Shown one piece after another: positions 7-12,761 of a stretch of 64,000 nt of DNA; the first letter of the stretch is position 1, and each line of letters starts with the position of its first letter. Under the pieces are notes generated by a model. That model did no database searches and was not told the DNA's origin. It worked only from the letters and a program-made list of their open reading frames with translations. Source of the stretch: Oscillatoria salina IIICB1 (GTDB lineage: Bacteria > Cyanobacteriota > Cyanobacteriia > Cyanobacteriales > SIO1D9); contig NZ_JAAHBQ010000019.1 in the NCBI RefSeq assembly GCF_020144665.1, forward strand, positions 1-64,000, read 5' to 3'. The position numbers and the translations under genes are program-made.

Positions 7-36
7 GAGAGGGTCGCGAGAGCGACTCTCTTTTTT
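7..36 (+). terminator. Rho-independent terminator at window edge
   Basis: A GC-rich hairpin (GAGAG plus TCGC pairing with GCGA plus CTCTC, two-base bulge, GAGA loop) is followed directly by six T. It would end transcription from a gene lying left of the window on the plus strand. Confidence 0.6.
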
Positions 37-343
37 GATCAAGAACATGGCGCGGGAAAACCTCGCCATTCTAGGGCGGGGATGCGCCTTGCGTCTTAAC
101 TTCCACTTTACCATTCCCAAGATGTTGTGTGAAAATAGGGGTATGTTCCAAACCATGCTGAAATACAAGGCTGAATGGTCTGGAAAGATGTATATTGAAA
201 TTGACCGATTCTTTCCCTCATCGAAAACCTGTCATGTTTGCCTCAATCAAGTTGATAGTTTACCTCTCGATGTTCGGGAGTGGACTTGTGACTGTCAACG
301 ATTATTGCGCGTCGAGATAGAGAAAAGCGAAAAAATGCCGTAA
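35..343 (+). pseudogene. Relic of IS200/IS605-family TnpB (zinc-ribbon end)
   Basis: The middle of this reading frame reads like the C-terminal part of TnpB, the RNA-guided nuclease-like protein of IS200/IS605 elements. It has the block FFPSSKTCHVC and then a second cysteine pair in WTCDC, the zinc ribbon just before the last RuvC motif. The usual continuation (CG-x-HDRD-x-N-A) is missing, and the frame runs into unrelated residues and stops. The first 30 residues do not look like TnpB. A G/C-rich inverted repeat near 72-86 may be a remnant of the element end. Only about 60 of roughly 400 residues survive, so this is a dead fragment. No partner TnpA is seen. Confidence 0.7.
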
Positions 344-3196: not shown

Positions 3197-4180
3197 TTAA
3201 CGCTTTGTAGCGCTTACTCCTAAATAGACTCCCAGCAGAACAATCCCAAAAGCGATCGCATTCCAGAGATTGAGAGTTTCTCGAAAGGCAAACCAAGCAG
3301 CGATCGCCGACAAAACCGGATCTAATAACAATACTAATGCAACCAAGCTCGCTGAGAGTTTGCTAGTGCTATAAGCAAACAGCCCTAACGCCACTAATTG
3401 ACCCACAATCGCCAATGCAGCCACAGCTAGCCAGCCATTAAATGAAACTGGAAAGAGTCGTTCCCCCAAGATCAGAGTCACCACAAAATTAACCGCCACT
3501 CCGGTTAAGGAAGCCCAGAACAAGATCTTCAAGCTGCTTACTCTAGTTCCCAGACGTTCTGTTCCCATCAGTTGCATCGCGAAGAAAACTGCTGAAGCTA
3601 AGGCTAAAAGATCGCCTTGAATTTTGTGAACATCCAATTGAATGTCATTAATACTCAGGGTTACTGTGCCAATTAAAGCAATGCTAGTTCCCAGCAAAAA
3701 TCGGCGCTCAAATCGAGTTTGAAAAACTAACCAACCCCCCAGTGTCGTAAATAAAGGAGTTAAGTTGTGCATCAAAGCCGAATTAGCTACACTGGTTTGA
3801 GTCAGCGACCATGCCCAAACTACAGGCATCGCAGCAAAAGAAATTAAAGTAACTCCCCAAATCAAATATTGGTAACTAGACTCTGCTTCATTTGTCTCAG
3901 CTTCCAAATTCGCCTGCTGCTGAGACACTGATAAATTAGCTTCCGATTTCGGGAATCGAAGTGCCTGGAATCCTTGCCAACTAGCCAAAATCAACGCCGC
4001 AATCCAACAGCGATTAAAAATTGTCGCCTCTGGACTCAGTTCCATCTCACACCAACGAACTAAGAGTGGTACAAAAGCAGCAGCGATCAACCCAACGGCA
4101 AGAGCTGCGATCGCCAGCCAATGACTAGGTTTTTTTTCTTCGACTGCTTCTGCTCTTTCAGTAGCTAGTTGGCTATTCAT
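3197..4180 (-). CDS. EamA/DMT-family transporter
   Basis: A 327-residue membrane protein with about ten hydrophobic segments arranged as two EamA repeats. A Gln/Glu-rich loop (about residues 82-103) follows the second segment. DMT proteins of this type usually export small metabolites or amino acids. It is the last of eight minus-strand genes, 11 nt after the dehydrogenase-like gene, so it is probably in the same transcript. That position suggests export of the cluster product or of an intermediate. The substrate cannot be inferred from sequence. Confidence 0.85.
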   Translation of the reverse strand: MNSQLATERAEAVEEKKPSHWLAIAALAVGLIAAAFVPLLVRWCEMELSPEATIFNRCWIAALILASWQGFQALRFPKSEANLSVSQQQANLEAETNEAESSYQYLIWGVTLISFAAMPVVWAWSLTQTSVANSALMHNLTPLFTTLGGWLVFQTRFERRFLLGTSIALIGTVTLSINDIQLDVHKIQGDLLALASAVFFAMQLMGTERLGTRVSSLKILFWASLTGVAVNFVVTLILGERLFPVSFNGWLAVAALAIVGQLVALGLFAYSTSKLSASLVALVLLLDPVLSAIAAWFAFRETLNLWNAIAFGIVLLGVYLGVSATKR

Positions 4181-4191
4181 ACTAGATTTCT

Positions 4192-5154
4192 CTACTGTGA
4201 ATAATTTTTAATCGGCACAAAATCAAGGTCAGTCAAAGTTTTCTGCTTCTCTCCTGACAAATAATTCCTTAAAGTGTCCTTCCACTGATTAATCCGACGC
4301 AAGAAACACTCTTTCGTATACCAAGCGCGACGGCAACTCAGAACAGTATTGGGCGTTTCCAGAAAAAAGTCTACTACCAGTAAATCCAGCGCCACACCAC
4401 CAATTTCTCCCCGATTTAGGGCATCACGCACCGCCATCATATCCATTACATCATCTGGAGATGTATTAACAATCAAAGCAGTGGATTTCATCCGTTTGAG
4501 GGTATCAGCATTAATCATGTGGTGAGAATCATGATTCAAGGGAGTAGTCAGAAAAATTACGTCAGAGGTTTCCAGGAGTGTATCTAAACTGACACTTTTG
4601 GCAAAGCTACTTTGACGTGGAGAGCGGTTGTAATACTGCAACTCCATGTTGAAACCACTCAACAACCGTGCCACGTAACTACCAATGTTACCAAAGCCAA
4701 TAATTCCTGCTGTTTTACCAGCTAGTTCTGTACCAGGATAATCGAAGCAATCGGTGTTGCCCTGACGCACTTCCCGGTTAAGATCGGGAATTTTACGCAT
4801 AGCAGACATCATCAAGGCTACCGCGTGTTCTGCCACTGACGAGCCAGTATAATTTTCGGTATTGAAAATCTGGATACCGTGTTGGCGACAGTATTCTGAA
4901 TCAATAAAGTGGGTGGAAATAGTCGTAGCAATAATTGCCTCTAGGTTAGGCATTTGCTGCAAATACTCCGCCGTCAGATTCATGTAAGTAGTGATGATGA
5001 TGTGGCTGTCAGCATGAGTTTTAATTGCTTCGCTCAGTGAAAAAGCACTACCAGTTTTCTGATACCAGGCAACCTCCAATTGCTCCCTGAGATCGTCTAA
5101 GTGATTTTCAGGGATTGGTTCGCGATCGTTTAAGATCAAACACTTCTTTTTCAT
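4192..5154 (-). CDS. D-2-hydroxyacid dehydrogenase-like protein lacking catalytic residues
   Basis: This 320-residue protein has the fold signature of NAD-dependent D-isomer 2-hydroxyacid dehydrogenases, including the cofactor-binding GIIGFGNIGSYVA (about 149-162) and an NRS after the second strand. The catalytic positions are changed. Where the family has N-T-x-R-G it reads NTSPDD (Pro233 for Arg). Where it has an E-P it reads VVDFF (Asp262 for Glu). Where it has T-P-H-I it reads SCRRAWYT (Arg275 for His). Normal hydride transfer to a 2-keto acid is therefore unlikely; it may bind NAD(H) as a regulator or do other chemistry. It starts 3 nt after the methyltransferase stop, so the two are probably translationally coupled. 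Confidence 0.8.
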   Translation of the reverse strand: MKKKCLILNDREPIPENHLDDLREQLEVAWYQKTGSAFSLSEAIKTHADSHIIITTYMNLTAEYLQQMPNLEAIIATTISTHFIDSEYCRQHGIQIFNTENYTGSSVAEHAVALMMSAMRKIPDLNREVRQGNTDCFDYPGTELAGKTAGIIGFGNIGSYVARLLSGFNMELQYYNRSPRQSSFAKSVSLDTLLETSDVIFLTTPLNHDSHHMINADTLKRMKSTALIVNTSPDDVMDMMAVRDALNRGEIGGVALDLLVVDFFLETPNTVLSCRRAWYTKECFLRRINQWKDTLRNYLSGEKQKTLTDLDFVPIKNYSQ

Positions 5155-5157
5155 CGG

Positions 5158-5805
5158 TTAATCCTCAGTATCAACTACCTGGTAAATACAATAAATGACT
5201 TTGCGATCGCCATATCCTTCACGCTTGGGCAAATACACTACCGGATCGCTAACACTTTCTCGGCGTAGTTCTCCACGTTGCTCAAACCCAGAAAGGACTT
5301 TACCATAGTTGTACTGCTTAAACAATACTTCTTGCTGAGTAAATACTAGATATCCCTGGGGACGTACTAAGCGGCGAAATTCCTGCAAGACTGGGGTGGG
5401 GTCGGCAATTAGGGAAAAGACTCCAACACAAGCGATCGCTGCAAAACTGTTTTCCGCAAAAGGGTATGGTGTTTTACTCAAATCCTGCAAACTCAGAAAA
5501 TTATAGTGACCTGTGGCTTCTGCTTGAGCTAGCATCTCTGGTGAAATATCAATCCCAGTAATGTTTTGATAGCCTAAATCTACTAACGCCTGTCCTACTA
5601 ATCCAGTACCACAACCTGCATCGAGAATAGGTTGGTCTGTGGGTATGTAATGATGCAAAGCCTCTGCTGCGGTGCGATAACACTGATATCCCCAATCATC
5701 AACTGATTGGTTATAAACGGGCGCAAAGTTAGTATAGCGTTCTACTACATCCAAGTTCTTTAAGTCAGTTTGGGAAAGGTCAGAAAGTTTTAATTTCTTG
5801 TTCAT
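5158..5805 (-). CDS. Class I SAM-dependent methyltransferase
   Basis: A 215-residue Rossmann-fold methyltransferase. Motif I is LDAGCGTG (61-68), the acidic end of strand 2 is GIDIS (84-88), and CVGVFSLI lies where motif IV is expected. The ATG at 5803-5805 is preferred over an in-frame start 29 codons upstream. The 44-bp duplicate at 7041-7084 preserves exactly this leader and start (MNKKLKL) right behind the PhyH gene, where an operon start is expected. It probably methylates O, N or C of the cluster intermediate; the substrate is unknown. The adjacent dehydrogenase-like gene is 3 nt downstream. Confidence 0.85.
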   Translation of the reverse strand: MNKKLKLSDLSQTDLKNLDVVERYTNFAPVYNQSVDDWGYQCYRTAAEALHHYIPTDQPILDAGCGTGLVGQALVDLGYQNITGIDISPEMLAQAEATGHYNFLSLQDLSKTPYPFAENSFAAIACVGVFSLIADPTPVLQEFRRLVRPQGYLVFTQQEVLFKQYNYGKVLSGFEQRGELRRESVSDPVVYLPKREGYGDRKVIYCIYQVVDTED

Positions 5806-5827
5806 AGTTTTAGTCTTCTCAAGATTA
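5784..5827. repeat. 44-bp direct repeat, copy 1
   Basis: This matches 7041-7084 in 42 of 44 positions and in the same orientation. It covers the leader and the first seven codons of the methyltransferase gene. The two copies bracket the plus-strand PhyH gene, as expected after an insertion or segmental duplication. Confidence 0.9.
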
Positions 5828-6120
5828 AAGATACAATTAACTTTTGATCGCCAAAACGGGGTTATGTCCTTAAGACTTTTGTCTCTACTCAAGCGACCCG
5901 AAATAAGTATACTATCTGAGCATTTGAGTCTTGCAATTGCATCAATACTTTTTTTATAGACATTCCCGAAAAATTGTTAACCCCCCAAACCTAAATAGTT
6001 ACTGTACTATTAAATCATAATTTACCATTTAACATCCTTGACATAAAGTAAAAATAATGATATTTATATATTATTTGCTGCTTTATTCTTCTTCAAAAAT
6101 TTATTTTACTGAGGTAGTTA

Positions 6121-7014
6121 ATGATTACTTCTCAAAGTCAATTCGTTAATGAAATTGAGATATCTAGTTCAGATATTCACTCTTTTAGTAAGCAAGGATT
6201 TCTCAAACTAAAAAAGTTGTTTACTCCTCAAGCAATAGAGTATTTTAAAGAGTTGACACTCGCTCAAATAGCAGCACCTGCTGGATTTTATCCCAATTCT
6301 GAGATGTCAAAACTAAAATATGGAATCAATAACTCTGTAATCAAAGAAATGTACTCATCCAGAGAGTTTGATGTCTTCAATAAACTTACTCAGAAAAAGC
6401 TCTTATTTTTGCAAGGTGTTGGCTTCCAAATGGATACAGAAAAAAAAGGTTTTGACTGGCACGTAGGAGTGTTCAGCTTTAATTTTTTGATGCCAGAAGA
6501 TTTTGCTTGTTCTTTGTGGATACCATTAGATCCTATTAACACTAGACAGCAACATGGTGGAATGGCTTATGTTCCCAAAAATGTTGTTTCCGCAGACACA
6601 TATTTCTTTCTTGTAGACAGACTAATTAGAGAAGATGATTTCCTGGAAGCTCTTAGTTTAGGTCAATTTAACAATTTTTATCATGCTCCTGAAATGGAAG
6701 CTTTTTTACTAGAAAAAGACAAGATAGAAGATGATTTTGAAATTGGTGATGCTCTACTTTTTGACAAATTTGTTTGGCATAGAAGTTGCCCTCTTAAACC
6801 AGGAAATTTAAAATCTAGAACTGCATTTGTGATGCGATTTTCTGGCGACAAATCGCGCTACTCGAAAACATTGCTAAATCGGCTTGATTTAGCAATGGAA
6901 AGACTAAACTATAATACTCAAACCAAACTGGGTTCTAAATTTTCGGAACTTAGTGATGGTGATTTAATCTTAGAGATGAACAAAAATTATGTTGGGGCAA
7001 AAGCTAGTGTTTAA
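6121..7014 (+). CDS. PhyH-fold Fe/2-oxoglutarate enzyme with H-x-G motif (candidate halogenase)
   Basis: A 297-residue protein of the phytanoyl-CoA dioxygenase (PhyH) fold. The family layout is clear: WHVGVFSF (metal His114), then SLWIPLDPIN, then GGMAYVPKN, then FVWHRSC (distal His220) and SRTAFVMRF (Arg233 for 2-oxoglutarate). At the Asp of the usual HxD triad the protein has Gly116. In Fe/2-oxoglutarate halogenases the same loss of the carboxylate opens a site for chloride or bromide. The start ATG has TGAGG six bases upstream. It is the only plus-strand gene in the block, is AT-richer than its neighbours, and is flanked by 44-bp direct repeats. Alternatives are an altered oxygenase or a dead enzyme. 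Confidence 0.75.
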   Translation: MITSQSQFVNEIEISSSDIHSFSKQGFLKLKKLFTPQAIEYFKELTLAQIAAPAGFYPNSEMSKLKYGINNSVIKEMYSSREFDVFNKLTQKKLLFLQGVGFQMDTEKKGFDWHVGVFSFNFLMPEDFACSLWIPLDPINTRQQHGGMAYVPKNVVSADTYFFLVDRLIREDDFLEALSLGQFNNFYHAPEMEAFLLEKDKIEDDFEIGDALLFDKFVWHRSCPLKPGNLKSRTAFVMRFSGDKSRYSKTLLNRLDLAMERLNYNTQTKLGSKFSELSDGDLILEMNKNYVGAKASV

Positions 7015-7040: not shown

Positions 7041-7084
7041 AAAGTTTTAATTTTTTGTTCATCGTTTTAGTCTTCTCAAGATTA
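7041..7084. repeat. 44-bp direct repeat, copy 2
   Basis: It starts right at the stop codon of the downstream PhyH gene (minus strand) and carries a copy of the methyltransferase leader and first seven codons. It differs from 5784-5827 at two positions. Confidence 0.9.
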
Positions 7085-7969
7085 GACATTAGCGATACTT
7101 TTCTTCGTGCGCCCATGTCGAATACTGACACCTGTTTTGGGGTCGTCAGCAGTTTCTACTTCAAAGAACTTTTGTGTTTCAAAAATGCCGTTATATTGCT
7201 TTTCACGCAGGGCAGAATCAGGAACTTTCTCTAAGGGAATGTAGCGGTGATGTTGTTGATTGTCCAGGTTATAAGGCTCGTTACTCACCACATTGTAAGT
7301 ACAAAATAACGCTACGCGAATGTCATTTGTTTCATTGAGATCGGAACCATGTAAGGTGTTGGCATGGAAGAACACAGCATCACCCTGTTGCAACTCGCAG
7401 TAAACAATTTCCAAACGATCCAGCACAATTTTTAAGCGTTCTGGATCTGCACAACTAGAGTTAGAATTAGGCAGCATCACATTTTCTATCCTTCCCAGAT
7501 GGTGAGAACCCTTAGCAATCTGTAAACAGCCGTTCTTGCGGGTATTTTCATTAATAGCAATACAACAGCTAACAAGTTTAGGATATAAACAATAATCCTC
7601 GTACCAGGTACCAAAACCTTGATGCCAAGCAACCGAACCCTCTGTTGGCTTTTTCAAGACTATTTTCGAGTGCCAATGATAGCATTCCTCGCCTTCGAGT
7701 GCTTCTGCTGCATCCACTACGCGAGCCATACGAGGTATAACACCGAGCATACTATCTCCTAGCTCACTCCAAACGGAAAGCTTAAAGCCAATTCCACCAT
7801 AATCAACTTCCGATTGGGTATTATTTAAGCTACGATCGCGATCGCAAGCTTGTCGTAGGGGTTCGATTTCCTCTGGAGCAAAAAAGTTACGGACAATAAC
7901 ATAGCCATGCTCGTGGTAGTGAGCAATTTGTGCTTGGGTCAAGGGAAATTCGGTTTTGATTTTATTCAT
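7082..7969 (-). CDS. PhyH-family Fe/2-oxoglutarate enzyme with H-Q-G motif (candidate halogenase)
   Basis: A 295-residue PhyH-family protein, closely following the family block WHQ[D]-x-G-x-WYxxxCLYP. Here it reads AWHQGFGTWY: Gly118 sits in the place of the iron-binding Asp (codon GGT, one base from GAT). His116, the distal His207 (TLHGSDLN) and the 2-oxoglutarate Arg218 (DIRVAL) are kept, as is the jelly-roll block NGCLQIAKGSH. A kept cofactor Arg with a lost carboxylate is the known pattern of Fe/2-oxoglutarate halogenases. The ATG at 7967-7969 is preferred; a TTG five codons upstream is possible. It is the fifth gene of the minus-strand cluster. A hydroxylase with altered ligation, or an inactive protein, cannot be excluded. 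Confidence 0.82.
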   Translation of the reverse strand: MNKIKTEFPLTQAQIAHYHEHGYVIVRNFFAPEEIEPLRQACDRDRSLNNTQSEVDYGGIGFKLSVWSELGDSMLGVIPRMARVVDAAEALEGEECYHWHSKIVLKKPTEGSVAWHQGFGTWYEDYCLYPKLVSCCIAINENTRKNGCLQIAKGSHHLGRIENVMLPNSNSSCADPERLKIVLDRLEIVYCELQQGDAVFFHANTLHGSDLNETNDIRVALFCTYNVVSNEPYNLDNQQHHRYIPLEKVPDSALREKQYNGIFETQKFFEVETADDPKTGVSIRHGRTKKSIANV

Positions 7970-8035
7970 GAAAGTCAATCTCAATGTTTTTGGACTAATT
8001 TGTGCTGAATGTTGAATGAAGAAAGCTCACATAGC

Positions 8036-9448
8036 TTAGGTTAATCTTGCCTCAAGCTTCTGTTTTGCTGCCTCTTGACCAGCAATACGCCCAAATACCA
8101 GACATTCAGTTATAGAAGTGGTACTCAAACGTGACACACCGTGAACGCCACCAGTTACCTCACCCGCAGCATATAAACCCTCAATAACTTTGCCCTCAGT
8201 ATTAAGAACCTGAGCCTGGGAATTAATCCGCAAACCGCCCGTAGTATAGTGAACTTTGGGCCACAAGCGGACAGCGTAATAGGGAGGCTTTAGGGGTTGG
8301 GAAACTGGTGGAATGGGTTTACCAAAATCATCATCGTGACCTTGGATAACAAAGTGATTGTACCGTTCCAACGTATCTAGTAAAACTGAGTAGGGTAGGC
8401 TGTAATGAGCAGCTAAATCCTCCAAATTATCAAAAGCATATACTACTTGACGCCGTAAACATTTATCAATAGGCTGTCCAGATAAAGCGACACCTTGAGC
8501 ATCAGCAATACCTATACAAGGGGATGCGATCGCCAACATCGCATCTACGTGAGTTTTTCGGTCTGCTAACTCGTTAACAAAGCGCTTCCCCGTTTCAGGA
8601 TGAATTAAAACCCCGTAAGGAAACACTGTATAGCTAGCTAGCAAAGCTGCGACTCCGTAACCTTTTTCATCTGGTGAGGTAAATGGAGCTAGTTGAATAT
8701 GTTCTAAATCCACCGTGTCAGCACCAATACGCATTGCCTCTTCCAGAGCTTCGGCAGTAGCATGGGGCATATTTGTACAACCAATCTCCCCCCCTAATTT
8801 GGCATCGAATTGTTGACGAAATTGAACGTCAGCAGAGAAACCACCAGTAGCTAATATTACTGCTTTTCGAGCATGAATCCATTGTGCATCTTGCTTTCTG
8901 TTCAAGAAAGGAACCACCTGAACGCCGTTAACTCGCCCACGGTCATCCAAAGACAACTTAGTCATTTGCCAACCATTTCGAGGTATCACTCCCAGACTTT
9001 TCAGCTTCTGCAACATAGGCTTGATAATCGTAGTTCCGATCGCTTTTTTGGGTGTCAAACTACGAGCTACTCTATGTCCAGCAAATTGATTTGGGCTTTG
9101 TCGAAAAGCAATACCTAAATCCTCTATTAACCAGTTACAGATATCTGGTGTATGCTCTGCAAGAGTTTTTACCAGAGACAATTGGTTGGTATTCCGCCCA
9201 GCTTTGAGCATATCCTCCAATAAATATTCAGGACTATCTTCAATCTGAGCTTGTTGCTGTAGAGAACAGCCTGTTGCCACTAGCACTCCATCGCTGATAA
9301 TCGAATTACCACCGCAACTCGCACGCTTTTCCAAAAGGATCGCCGCAGCCCCCAGGTTAGCTACTTGAATAGCCGCCATCAAGCCAGCAAAGCCACTGCC
9401 AACTACGATTACATCGGTTGTTTCATTCCAAGGAAGCTGATAATTCAT
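8036..9448 (-). CDS. FAD-dependent oxidoreductase, fumarate reductase/flavocytochrome c type (second of pair)
   Basis: A 470-residue flavoprotein. The dinucleotide motif GSGFAG is at 17-22, and the C-terminal FAD block AAGEVTGGVHGVSRL is at about 427-441. Candidate substrate-site residues of the fumarate reductase family are kept: Arg297 in NELADRK, His400 in KVHYTTGG and Arg440. The first family His (in HPT) is replaced by an LAPFTS segment, so the substrate probably differs from fumarate. Such enzymes reduce or introduce a C=C bond next to a carbonyl. There is no heme domain or signal peptide, so it is cytoplasmic. It is a paralog of the next gene upstream. Confidence 0.85.
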   Translation of the reverse strand: MNYQLPWNETTDVIVVGSGFAGLMAAIQVANLGAAAILLEKRASCGGNSIISDGVLVATGCSLQQQAQIEDSPEYLLEDMLKAGRNTNQLSLVKTLAEHTPDICNWLIEDLGIAFRQSPNQFAGHRVARSLTPKKAIGTTIIKPMLQKLKSLGVIPRNGWQMTKLSLDDRGRVNGVQVVPFLNRKQDAQWIHARKAVILATGGFSADVQFRQQFDAKLGGEIGCTNMPHATAEALEEAMRIGADTVDLEHIQLAPFTSPDEKGYGVAALLASYTVFPYGVLIHPETGKRFVNELADRKTHVDAMLAIASPCIGIADAQGVALSGQPIDKCLRRQVVYAFDNLEDLAAHYSLPYSVLLDTLERYNHFVIQGHDDDFGKPIPPVSQPLKPPYYAVRLWPKVHYTTGGLRINSQAQVLNTEGKVIEGLYAAGEVTGGVHGVSRLSTTSITECLVFGRIAGQEAAKQKLEARLT

Positions 9449-9516: not shown

Positions 9517-10962
9517 TTATCCTGGTGGAAGTGTTTCAACTGCCTGAAATTTAATTTCCTGATGAGAGCTTATTTGCTCATCCCATTCTTCGTGAATGTC
9601 GTCTTCTATGGCAGCTTGCCGTCCAGCAATACGACCAAAGACAAGACACTCAGTAATCGCGCAGCATCCCAGGCGGCAAACACCATGAATACCACCAGTA
9701 ACCTCACCAGCAGCATAAAATCTGGGGATAACTTTTCCGGCTTTGTCCAACACTGCCGCTTGGGGGTTAATCCGGACTCCGCCCATAGTGGAATGTGCCT
9801 TGGGCCACAAACGAACGCTATAGAAAGGTGGGTTTAAAGGCTTGGCTTTTGCGGGAATGGGTTTACCAAACTCTTCATCTAAGTGCTTCTCGACATAGCT
9901 ATTGTAGGTTTGGAGTGTTTCTTCCAGCGCCTTCTCTGGAAGTTGATGATAGTCTGCTAGAGCAGCCAGAGAATCAAAACGCCGGGTCACAGTGTCATCC
10001 ATGTGTTCGTGAATCATCTCACCAACATTTTCCAAGCCCTGTTGGTCAACAATTCCAACGGGAAAGTTTTCCAAAGCCATCATCGCCTCAGCACGAGTTT
10101 TGCGGTCTGTCCATTCGTTGACGAAACGCTTTCCTGTAGCTGGGTTGACCATAAATCCGTAGGGAAAGATTGCATAACTAGCAAATACGGCGGCAACTCC
10201 TCTACCCTGCTCATCTGGGGAAGCACAGGGCAACATTTGCAAATGCTCCATGTCAATTAAGGCTGCACCAGCACGTTCAGCAATCCGGAGAGTTTCGCCA
10301 GTGGAATCGCTGAGACTGGTTCGCAGAGCATCTTTACCTGCTGCTTCACCACTGAAACCGCCACTAGCCAGGATTATTGCCTTTTTAGCTTCGATTGTGA
10401 GACTTTCTGCCCGATCTGGAGTAGAAACTAGAGAGGCTCTAACTGCGATCGCTGTGCCTTGGGAGGTTTGGTAAATCTCTTCCAGGCAAGTGTTAAGACG
10501 GATATCCACCTTCAGGCTTGCAGCCCGCTCTAACATGGGATTGATAATGTTTCTTCCTTGGATTTCTTCGACACTGTGGCATCGTGGTACGGAATGACCG
10601 CCAAGTTGTTCTAGCCTGTCCATAAACTCGATCCCAAAGTCTTGACGCAGCCACTGTAGCACCTCAAAGGAATGGATACAAACAAGACGCACAAGTTCTG
10701 GGTCATTCGTACGTCCTGCCCGCATCATGTCTTCAAACATCAGACGAGTAGAATCTACAACACCGTGGCGGCTCTGCATAACTACATCTACTGCTGCTAA
10801 TGCACCGCCACTAATCCAGGAGTTACCTCCGTAAGAATCCCGCTTTTCTAAGACAATTACTGAACAGCCTGCTTGGGCAGCTTCGATCGCTGCTGCTAGA
10901 CCTGCAAAACCACTACCAATTACAATTACGTCAGTGCTTTCATCCCAAGAAGTCTTAGACAT
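9517..10962 (-). CDS. FAD-dependent oxidoreductase, fumarate reductase/flavocytochrome c type (first of pair)
   Basis: A 481-residue paralog of the neighbouring flavoprotein. It starts MSKTSWDESTDVIVIGSGFAG, has NEWTDRKTRAEAM (active-site Arg region), KAHSTMGGVRIN, and ends with AAGEVTGGIHGVCRL and ECLVFGRIAG. The start at 10960-10962 is chosen because GGAGGTGG lies six bases upstream; a longer frame starting at 11049 would lie inside the preceding gene. The ATG overlaps the stop of the aldolase gene by eight bases, which indicates translational coupling. As in its paralog, the HPT His is absent (MLPCAS). Two different but related flavoproteins in one operon suggest two steps or a heterodimer. 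Confidence 0.85.
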   Translation of the reverse strand: MSKTSWDESTDVIVIGSGFAGLAAAIEAAQAGCSVIVLEKRDSYGGNSWISGGALAAVDVVMQSRHGVVDSTRLMFEDMMRAGRTNDPELVRLVCIHSFEVLQWLRQDFGIEFMDRLEQLGGHSVPRCHSVEEIQGRNIINPMLERAASLKVDIRLNTCLEEIYQTSQGTAIAVRASLVSTPDRAESLTIEAKKAIILASGGFSGEAAGKDALRTSLSDSTGETLRIAERAGAALIDMEHLQMLPCASPDEQGRGVAAVFASYAIFPYGFMVNPATGKRFVNEWTDRKTRAEAMMALENFPVGIVDQQGLENVGEMIHEHMDDTVTRRFDSLAALADYHQLPEKALEETLQTYNSYVEKHLDEEFGKPIPAKAKPLNPPFYSVRLWPKAHSTMGGVRINPQAAVLDKAGKVIPRFYAAGEVTGGIHGVCRLGCCAITECLVFGRIAGRQAAIEDDIHEEWDEQISSHQEIKFQAVETLPPG

Positions 10963-11950
10963 AAGCTTCCACCTCCCCGAACACCTGTTCAATTTTCGTG
11001 TAAGGTTGGCGGGGAATTTGTTGCAGATAATGGGCTGTTTTCTCCCCATATCTTTCCATCAGTGGCTCTACCCAAAGCTGTGCCAAATTTTTAGCACCAA
11101 CTAAGTAGTAAAGATAACTCTTTTCTGCTGGCATGGGTACGTCAAAACGGCTCAGTCGCTCCAGAGGCTCGTAACGATAGGGCTTGTTGGGTTCCTTTTG
11201 CTGCACAAGTGCGATCGCATATTGCAACTTAGTATTGCCGCTACCTAAGCCTAGTCCATTGACTGTACCATCAATTACTTGACAGCCTGCTTCCAAAGCC
11301 ATCAACGCATTGACGGTAGCAAATCCGGTGTTGTCATGAGCATGAAAACCAAACAATCCTTGCCAATTTTCCCGCACGATTTCCACTATCCTACTGATAT
11401 CTTCTGGTCGGCAAGCTCCCCGTGAATCGGCGAGGTAAAATACATCTACTACACCCGATTGTTGGACTTTTTGAGCAGTAGCCGCGAACTGTTGCGGTAG
11501 CAAAGTGGAAATATTGACCAAGTTTAAGCTAGTCGCAATGCCGTACTCACTAGCTGCTGCTGCAACTCGCAAAGCGTCGTCTACTTCTTCGACGGTACAG
11601 GGAATTCTGACTAAATCTAAGACTTCTTGGCGACTGGCAAATAAGGTTTTTGGCTCTTTTTCACTTAAACTAATCATTACCGCCAGGTTGATTTTGCCTT
11701 TGGTATGTTCGCGCAGTTCGCTAAGTAAATCAGCGTCACAACGTGCAGCTAAGGGTTTGTCTGGCTTATCGCTGATGTAACCTACCTCAATAGCTTCGAT
11801 GCCAGTTTCTGCCACACCTCCTACTACGGCAAAAATTTCCTCGCGAGAAAATGACCAGCCATTCAAGTAACCAGCATCTCGCAAAGTGGCATCCAGTACA
11901 CTATGAGCATCTAGGAAAAAACTTGTCTGCTTGATAGTTTGTTTTCTCAC
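10955..11950 (-). CDS. DRE-TIM metallolyase (HMGL-like / 4-hydroxy-2-oxovalerate-aldolase-like)
   Basis: A 331-residue TIM-barrel protein of the HMG-CoA lyase/isopropylmalate synthase superfamily. The N-terminal motif is DATLRDAGYLNGW (Asp20, Arg24, Asp25) and the metal-binding pair is GFHAHDNTG (His203, His205). The DxTLRDxGYxNxW form is closest to the aldolase-catalytic-domain group rather than to LeuA. The family makes or breaks C-C bonds next to a 2-oxo acid or acyl-CoA. The usual Gly after Arg-Asp is Ala26. The start is GTG. It is the second gene of the cluster, 22 nt after the HpcH/HpaI gene. Confidence 0.85.
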   Translation of the reverse strand: MRKQTIKQTSFFLDAHSVLDATLRDAGYLNGWSFSREEIFAVVGGVAETGIEAIEVGYISDKPDKPLAARCDADLLSELREHTKGKINLAVMISLSEKEPKTLFASRQEVLDLVRIPCTVEEVDDALRVAAAASEYGIATSLNLVNISTLLPQQFAATAQKVQQSGVVDVFYLADSRGACRPEDISRIVEIVRENWQGLFGFHAHDNTGFATVNALMALEAGCQVIDGTVNGLGLGSGNTKLQYAIALVQQKEPNKPYRYEPLERLSRFDVPMPAEKSYLYYLVGAKNLAQLWVEPLMERYGEKTAHYLQQIPRQPYTKIEQVFGEVEAYV

Positions 11951-11972: not shown

Positions 11973-12761
11973 TTATACTCTAACGAACTGCTCGGAGGTT
12001 TGCACTAAAGTGCTAGCTTTATCCAGTTTGGCTTGGCTGGTAGCAATCCGTGACTGATAAAATTCCTGGCGGTTGGGATTAATCTCTATCAAAGACTGAT
12101 AATAGGCAATCTCAAATTCGATTCCTTTCCAGATAGAAGCGGTTACATCTGTTACTCGATTAAGGTCAAACATGGTGTGGATAGTGCTGAGACGGTCAAT
12201 ATTAAATTTTTGAAGAGAGACTGCACTATTAGGATTAACAAAGCCTCCTACAGAAACATGTTTACCCAGACGACGTACTTGATTAGCTAAATCTTGAGTG
12301 ATTTGGACAACTTCAGGATTATCCACATTGTTCATCTGCATCGAAAGGGATAAATCTAAACGCCCGATAACCACTGTATCAATTTCCTTAAAGTAAGGAC
12401 TGTTGAGGATTTCATCCAACTTGTGATATCCCTGAATTGTCTCAATATTGATGGCTAAAGTTGGATTAATTTCACTTTCTTCGTAAGCTTTTTGAGTTGT
12501 AATGACAAATTTTTCTAGGGCATATTCAGACTCGACCATCGGACAAAGAATTCCATTGACACCTATTGCCCGTAAGTGACGCAAATCTGTTCTAGCTTCT
12601 GAACCAGCAATTTTAACGAAAATAGGAATCTCTTTTTGACCTATTCTATAAAGATAATCAATCTCTGAATAGTTCATATCTTCCCACTCGGTTCCAGCTT
12701 TGAGTGCATATAAACCATACTGAGAATTCATGAGCTTGAGCATAGCTGTTAAATTGCTCAC
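11973..12761 (-). CDS. HpcH/HpaI aldolase / citrate-lyase-beta-like protein
   Basis: A 262-residue TIM-barrel enzyme of the PEP/pyruvate lyase group. The metal ligands are visible as Glu107 (AINIET) and Asp136 (IGRLDLS), with the conserved MVES block at 75-78. Family members cleave or form 2-oxo-3-hydroxy acids (pyruvate plus aldehyde) or split citramalyl-type CoA esters. It starts with GTG, with GGAG ten bases upstream. It is the first gene of the minus-strand cluster, so the cluster promoter should lie in 12762-13167. The C-terminal 40 residues (helical, rich in Gln and Ser) go beyond the barrel and may contact a partner. Confidence 0.8.
   Translation of the reverse strand: MSNLTAMLKLMNSQYGLYALKAGTEWEDMNYSEIDYLYRIGQKEIPIFVKIAGSEARTDLRHLRAIGVNGILCPMVESEYALEKFVITTQKAYEESEINPTLAINIETIQGYHKLDEILNSPYFKEIDTVVIGRLDLSLSMQMNNVDNPEVVQITQDLANQVRRLGKHVSVGGFVNPNSAVSLQKFNIDRLSTIHTMFDLNRVTDVTASIWKGIEFEIAYYQSLIEINPNRQEFYQSRIATSQAKLDKASTLVQTSEQFVRV

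Follow-up and report, generated by a model that had tools for sequence, protein, structure and literature searches.

HAL1, the protein encoded at positions 6121–7014 on the forward strand of the analyzed window (the 64,000-nucleotide stretch at positions 1 to 64,000 of Oscillatoria salina IIICB1 contig NZ_JAAHBQ010000019.1), is probably a free-standing Fe(II)/2-oxoglutarate (2OG) radical halogenase of the CurA-Hal/BtnX family. To our knowledge, few free-standing radical halogenases are known. By its sequence HAL1 belongs to an already known halogenase family, and the best reading is that its gene was recruited, probably beside the methyltransferase gene MT, into a gene cluster in which the second oxygenase, PhyH2, likewise has a halogenase-state site. 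In the proposed mechanism, iron would be held by His114 and His220, Gly116 would leave the third protein site free for chloride or bromide and 2OG would be anchored by Arg233. O2 and 2OG decarboxylation would generate a haloferryl species, which would abstract hydrogen from an aliphatic C–H bond, with subsequent halogen rebound. HAL1 is predicted to act on a small acid in free form (carboxylic, oxo or amino) that the surrounding cluster produces.

Residues 113–120 of HAL1 read WHVGVFSF, and His114, Gly116, His220 and Arg233 align with the HxG motif, second His and 2OG-binding Arg of BtnX and the CurA-type domains. The HxD...H signature of 2OG hydroxylases is absent from HAL1, which has Gly116 in place of the carboxylate, and no displaced Asp/Glu ligand was found in the family alignment, a carboxylate, where present, always occupying the Gly116 column. 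HAL1 retains every residue that is invariant in the family, among them His114, His220, Arg233 and Arg239. Replacement of the first-shell Asp/Glu by Gly/Ala is an accepted hallmark of Fe/2OG halogenases (PMC8407142; PMC13244439). Among solved structures, phmmer returned two real matches to HAL1, BtnX being the better (9pv1; E = 3.8e-38, HAL1 residues 6–284) and the CurA halogenase domain the other (3nnf; E = 2e-27). The function of BtnX is taken from its PDB molecule name, ‘biotin halogenase’, with which the BioY/EcfT neighbors of a Dinoroseobacter shibae relative agree. An earlier note on this DNA had described an HxG protein with His220 and Arg233 kept, and these points were borne out, as was a halogenase type for the protein, Gly116 falling exactly on the Gly of BtnX and the CurA-type domains and the nearest solved relatives being BtnX and CurA-Hal. 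It had also raised the prospects of a metal-binding Asp located elsewhere and of close relatives that are non-iron proteins; the alignment revealed no such Asp, and the nearest relatives of solved structure proved to be iron halogenases.

Comparison of an AlphaFold2 model of HAL1 (pLDDT 88.8, pTM 0.88) by Foldseek and VIA-align placed CurA-Hal first. CurA-Hal with Fe, chloride and 2OG was among the top matches (Z = 30.0, rmsd 2.8, 279 residues); the next family had a Z of 21.2, and BesD and HalA gave Z values of 17.4 and 17.2, respectively. BtnX entries were absent from these results, probably being newer than that library (entries to April 2026). Because the Pfam PhyH profile (PF05721) scored HAL1 at 16.3 bits, below the gathering cut-off of 22, the PhyH fold claimed in the earlier note holds by the structure model and by CurA/BtnX homology but not by Pfam. 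No NCBIfam model matched HAL1, including TIGR01762 for chlorinating enzymes of the SyrB2/CytC3 type. With neither profile recognizing it, routine annotation would name HAL1 a hypothetical protein or, loosely, a phytanoyl-CoA dioxygenase; related plasmid genes are annotated in these two ways.

A search of genome contigs with HAL1 alone as the query returned no relatives. A five-sequence alignment was needed as the query, and the scan, covering 84,980 species, then gave 57 loci with HAL1 relatives. The 65 usable family sequences comprised 52 with HxG (one without the His), nine with HxD and four with HxE. HxG is the default state in these sequences, and HxD and HxE arose several times, as judged from a tree built with the motif columns left out. 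The sister of HAL1 in this tree is a cyanobacterial clade in which all members are HxD (support 99/83; 100/98 for that clade itself), consisting of tandem pairs from Moorena, Okeania and related contigs, a single gene in a Symploca metagenome-assembled genome and the single gene L064; an L064-like HxD homolog is also present in G590. HAL1 is 42–45% identical to its closest relatives, the HxD proteins of Moorena, Okeania and Symploca (40–45% with L064/L151 included). The clade of BtnX does not include HAL1, which falls in a separate cyanobacterial clade with supports of 98/93 and 99/83. HxE arose two or three times elsewhere in the tree. Parsimony on this tree would make Gly locally ancestral, with Asp as a reversal. 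The best tree places HAL1 outside the HxD clade, but an AU test did not reject a nested placement (p = 0.118), so a regained Gly in HAL1 is possible.

Several other members of the family were also recorded. The HxE proteins (WHIE or WHVE; L012, L022, L023 and L050), from Pseudomonas, Pseudomonadales, Glomeribacter and Acidimicrobiaceae, are possible hydroxylases derived from halogenases. From position 11191 onward, L044 encodes a tandem second BtnX-like copy that is HxD and has Cys for the 2OG-binding Arg. The HxD tandem pairs are found at L006–L009 and L143 in Moorena, Okeania and related cyanobacteria, and in L009 the cluster that contains the pair also encodes a class II aldolase, a further PhyH protein and PLP enzymes resembling Orn/Lys/Arg decarboxylases. 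Mostly unannotated members occur on Klebsiella, Pantoea and Acinetobacter plasmids (for example, NZ_CP044049.1), that of Klebsiella variicola adjoining an iron-containing redox enzyme family protein and a LysE exporter.

The HxD state of the closest relatives, the positions that HAL1 has in common with HxD relatives (Ala129, His145 and Ala189) and its placement outside the BtnX clade count against the halogenase assignment and temper it. In a BesD-like hydroxylase, one Asp-to-Gly substitution by itself did not suffice (PMC13244439), so Gly alone would be no guarantee of efficient halogenation. HAL1 might instead be active without halogenating, catalyzing desaturation, cyclization, epoxidation, transfer of a different anion (azide or nitrite, for example), or hydroxylation at a water-filled site; its nearest relatives are HxD, switching of the family among Gly, Asp and Glu means that other outcomes are compatible with the substrate pocket, and redox chemistry is abundant in the cluster. 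We regard this as unlikely, as both characterized relatives, CurA-Hal and BtnX, are named halogenases and have the HxG site in common with HAL1. The metal-side residues also favor halogenation, since Trp113 and Phe214 of HAL1 are the residues fixed in 50 of 50 HxG homologs, whereas HxD relatives have Phe at position 113 in seven of eight cases (the exception being L064) and Leu at position 214 in all eight.

The cluster around HAL1 is ordered HpcH–HMGL–FlvC2–FlvC1–PhyH2 (all on the reverse strand), HAL1 (forward) and MT–DHDH–EamA (all reverse). FlvC1 (8036–9448) is a flavocytochrome c/fumarate-reductase-like flavoprotein and FlvC2 (9517–11049) a second flavocytochrome-c-like flavoprotein, both matching TIGR01813 (5.9e-127 and 1.9e-117, respectively). 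Pfam and NCBIfam profiles identified HMGL (10955–11950) as an HMGL-like aldolase/synthase, kin of 4-hydroxy-2-oxovalerate aldolase, and HpcH (11973–12761) is an HpcH/HpaI-type aldolase, 45–47% identical in the sister clusters described below. MT (5158–5892) is a class I SAM methyltransferase whose gene adjoins a halogenase-family gene both here and in Moorena. DHDH (4192–5154) is D-2-hydroxyacid dehydrogenase-like and 46–47% identical in sister clusters, and an EamA-family exporter (3197–4180), through which a product might leave the cell, lies 11 bp from it; EamA genes also stand beside several PhyH2 homologs. Canonical dehydrogenases carry an INTARG-type motif with the catalytic Arg and a TPH motif with the His. 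In DHDH and its orthologs (L066 and L113–L119), the Arg seems lost, with NTSPDD or ISPDD for the INTARG-type motif, and so does the His, with TPRRAWYT or similar for TPH, each in nine of nine sequences; DHDH of this cluster family seems not to be a normal dehydrogenase, or to have been repurposed. Near the cluster, window positions 35–343 (forward strand) contain a partial zinc-ribbon transposase-like open reading frame that resembles, by eye, the C terminus of IS605 OrfB/TnpB.

Prediction of the substrate from Pfam and NCBIfam assignments in the cluster fits small-carboxylate chemistry and yielded no specific compound. Such chemistry is suggested by the aldolases and fumarate-reductase-like flavoproteins, and by the fact that both oxygenases are free-standing. 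Neither the cluster nor the remainder of the window showed a gene for a carrier protein (ACP or PCP), a ligase or a PKS/NRPS, and this lack of carrier proteins and NRPS/PKS genes is why the HAL1 substrate is predicted to be small and free. Since CurA-Hal is the closest fold match, action on a carrier-bound substrate, as for CurA-Hal, with the carrier encoded elsewhere, was also weighed; it is very unlikely for a single-domain, free-standing protein in a window where none of these genes was seen, and the cyanobacterial HAL1 relatives outside the CurA clade are free-standing too. That HAL1 is a biotin halogenase like BtnX, the top sequence match among solved structures, is scarcely credible because the two are only 33% identical, HAL1 falls in its separate, supported cyanobacterial clade and the window lacks biotin-uptake genes of the BioY/EcfT type, with no counterpart of the operon on the D. 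shibae plasmid. In that operon (L140, plasmid pDSHI01, 5995–9775), the BtnX relative, annotated as a hypothetical protein, is followed by BioY, ABC ATPase and EcfT genes.

The HAL1 gene is an uninterrupted frame of 297 amino acids from ATG to stop, with many stops on the opposite strand across 6121–7014. The divergent intergenic region between MT and HAL1 (5893–6120, unstranded; 228 bp) holds a ribosome-binding candidate, GAGG (6111–6114), 6 nt before the ATG, and a promoter-like site (6029–6058, forward strand), promoter-like and terminator-like sites near HAL1 being no commoner than in shuffled sequences. HAL1 has a G+C content of 34%, the lowest in the cluster (neighbors, 38–48%), and a GC3 of 26%, the fourth lowest among 52 open reading frames in the window; the low GC3 is a suggestive, not decisive, signal of transfer. 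The low G+C and the broken related copies in two other cyanobacteria (three internal stops in G083 and a fragment in G043) might mark HAL1 as a decaying or non-catalytic remnant, which is highly improbable given its open frame with a ribosome-binding site, full retention of the family-invariant residues and high-confidence predicted fold.

Related clusters were found in other cyanobacteria. The core of HpcH, HMGL, DHDH and MT is present in G602, G596 and G654, accompanied by FlvC and PhyH2 in G602 and G596, and in G598 HMGL lies on a different contig from FlvC and PhyH2, which occur together. These sister clusters add an MmgE/PrpD protein, and those of G602 and G596 also add an enolase-family protein, kin of cis-3-hydroxyproline dehydratase. 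Where seen, PhyH2 of the sister clusters is HxD (WHAD; three of three). None of the four (G602, G596, G654 and G598) has HAL1 within the cluster; elsewhere in these genomes, G596 carries a CurA-like domain as well as the HxD tandem pair, G598 carries a fragment, and G602 and G654 carry no family member. A second, Moorena-type cluster, with HMGL, aminotransferase, FlvC, MT, DHDH and other genes, has its own HAL1-family member. In both G505 and Moorena sp. SIO3I8, whose contigs stop short of FlvC, an intact HxG homolog (WHVG) stands beside MT. In G083, the copy between FlvC and MT is broken, and HMGL, aminotransferase and DHDH are found upstream of it; this copy (WHAD) was considered as a functional hydroxylase and rejected for its three internal stops. 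As the HxG homolog of the Moorena-type cluster is 34% identical to HAL1 and outside the HAL1 clade, halogenase-type genes of this family either entered related core pathways on more than one occasion or have diverged strongly.

The neighbor PhyH2 (7082–7969, reverse strand, with a possible TTG start at 7984) is a second HxG protein (WHQGFGTWY) from a PhyH-fold family other than that of HAL1. Its nearest solved relatives are GriE, the proline hydroxylase H11 and EctD, which are free-substrate proline/ectoine/leucine hydroxylases. In 28 cyanobacterial members of this family the ligand is Asp in 14, Gly in 11, Leu in two and Ala in one, with at least five changes on the family tree; the closest relatives, 49–53% identical to PhyH2, include both HxD and HxG proteins. 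As its sequences read, the PhyH2 family is a natural hydroxylase/halogenase series. Across many small clusters (L077–L081 and L113–L139), often with EamA exporters, its ligand switches repeatedly.

The earlier note had presented HAL1 as a second, separate HxG protein inserted beside PhyH2, and both aspects agree with the data: the neighbor (WHQG) belongs to another family, and HAL1 is the sole forward-strand gene of the cluster, has its lowest G+C and is absent from the sister clusters. The low G+C and opposite orientation are consistent with later insertion. Of its further claim, that two independent HxG proteins side by side are hard to explain by chance, the independence stands, since the two enzymes come from different families, and the improbability is weakened: HxG is usual in the HAL1 family (52/65) and common in the PhyH2 family (11/28), so the pair needs no two rare mutations. 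It is a tentative and somewhat doubtful possibility that one NRPS/PKS-free small acid is halogenated by these two unrelated, side-by-side radical halogenases; its product would be the natural halogenated analog of what the sister clusters make in hydroxylated form, hydroxylation having been swapped for halogenation in an otherwise conserved pathway.

Unusually, a free-standing CurA/BtnX-like enzyme is paired here with an HxG enzyme to which it is unrelated, and the sister clusters have that second enzyme in its HxD form. The natural ligand series (Gly/Asp/Glu in the HAL1 family and Gly/Asp/Ala/Leu in the PhyH2 family) offer ready tests of halogenation versus hydroxylation. The cluster predicts an unrecognized class of small halogenated cyanobacterial acids, which searches tied to NRPS/PKS genes could miss. 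In a 2021 survey of cyanobacterial halogenases, the non-heme iron queries were CurA, BarB1, HctB, WelO5 and AmbO5, and several orphan clusters were reported (PMC8406957).

Among known systems, CurA-Hal (Cur Hal, PDB 3nnf/3nnl) of the curacin A pathway resembles HAL1 in homologous sequence, fold, HxG motif, second His and Arg pair. However, CurA-Hal is a PKS domain acting on an ACP-bound substrate (PMC8407142), whereas HAL1 is a free-standing protein whose cluster has no carrier proteins. BtnX (PDB 9pv1 and 9q04) is a full-length, free-standing HxG homolog but falls in another clade, and the biotin-uptake context of its relatives is missing here. The HxD homologs of Moorena, Okeania and Symploca (L006–L009) and L064/L151 are, like HAL1, free-standing and located in cyanobacterial clusters with a methyltransferase; unlike HAL1, they carry the carboxylate ligand and are therefore predicted hydroxylases. 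The PhyH2 family (P0002) parallels HAL1 in fold class and in the HxG motif of the window copy, but is closest to H11, EctD and GriE and mixes HxD with HxG. BesD/HalA-type amino-acid halogenases, SyrB2 and WelO5 belong to other families without a sequence match to HAL1, yet are alike in mechanism class, in Gly/Ala for Asp and in the 2OG-Fe fold.
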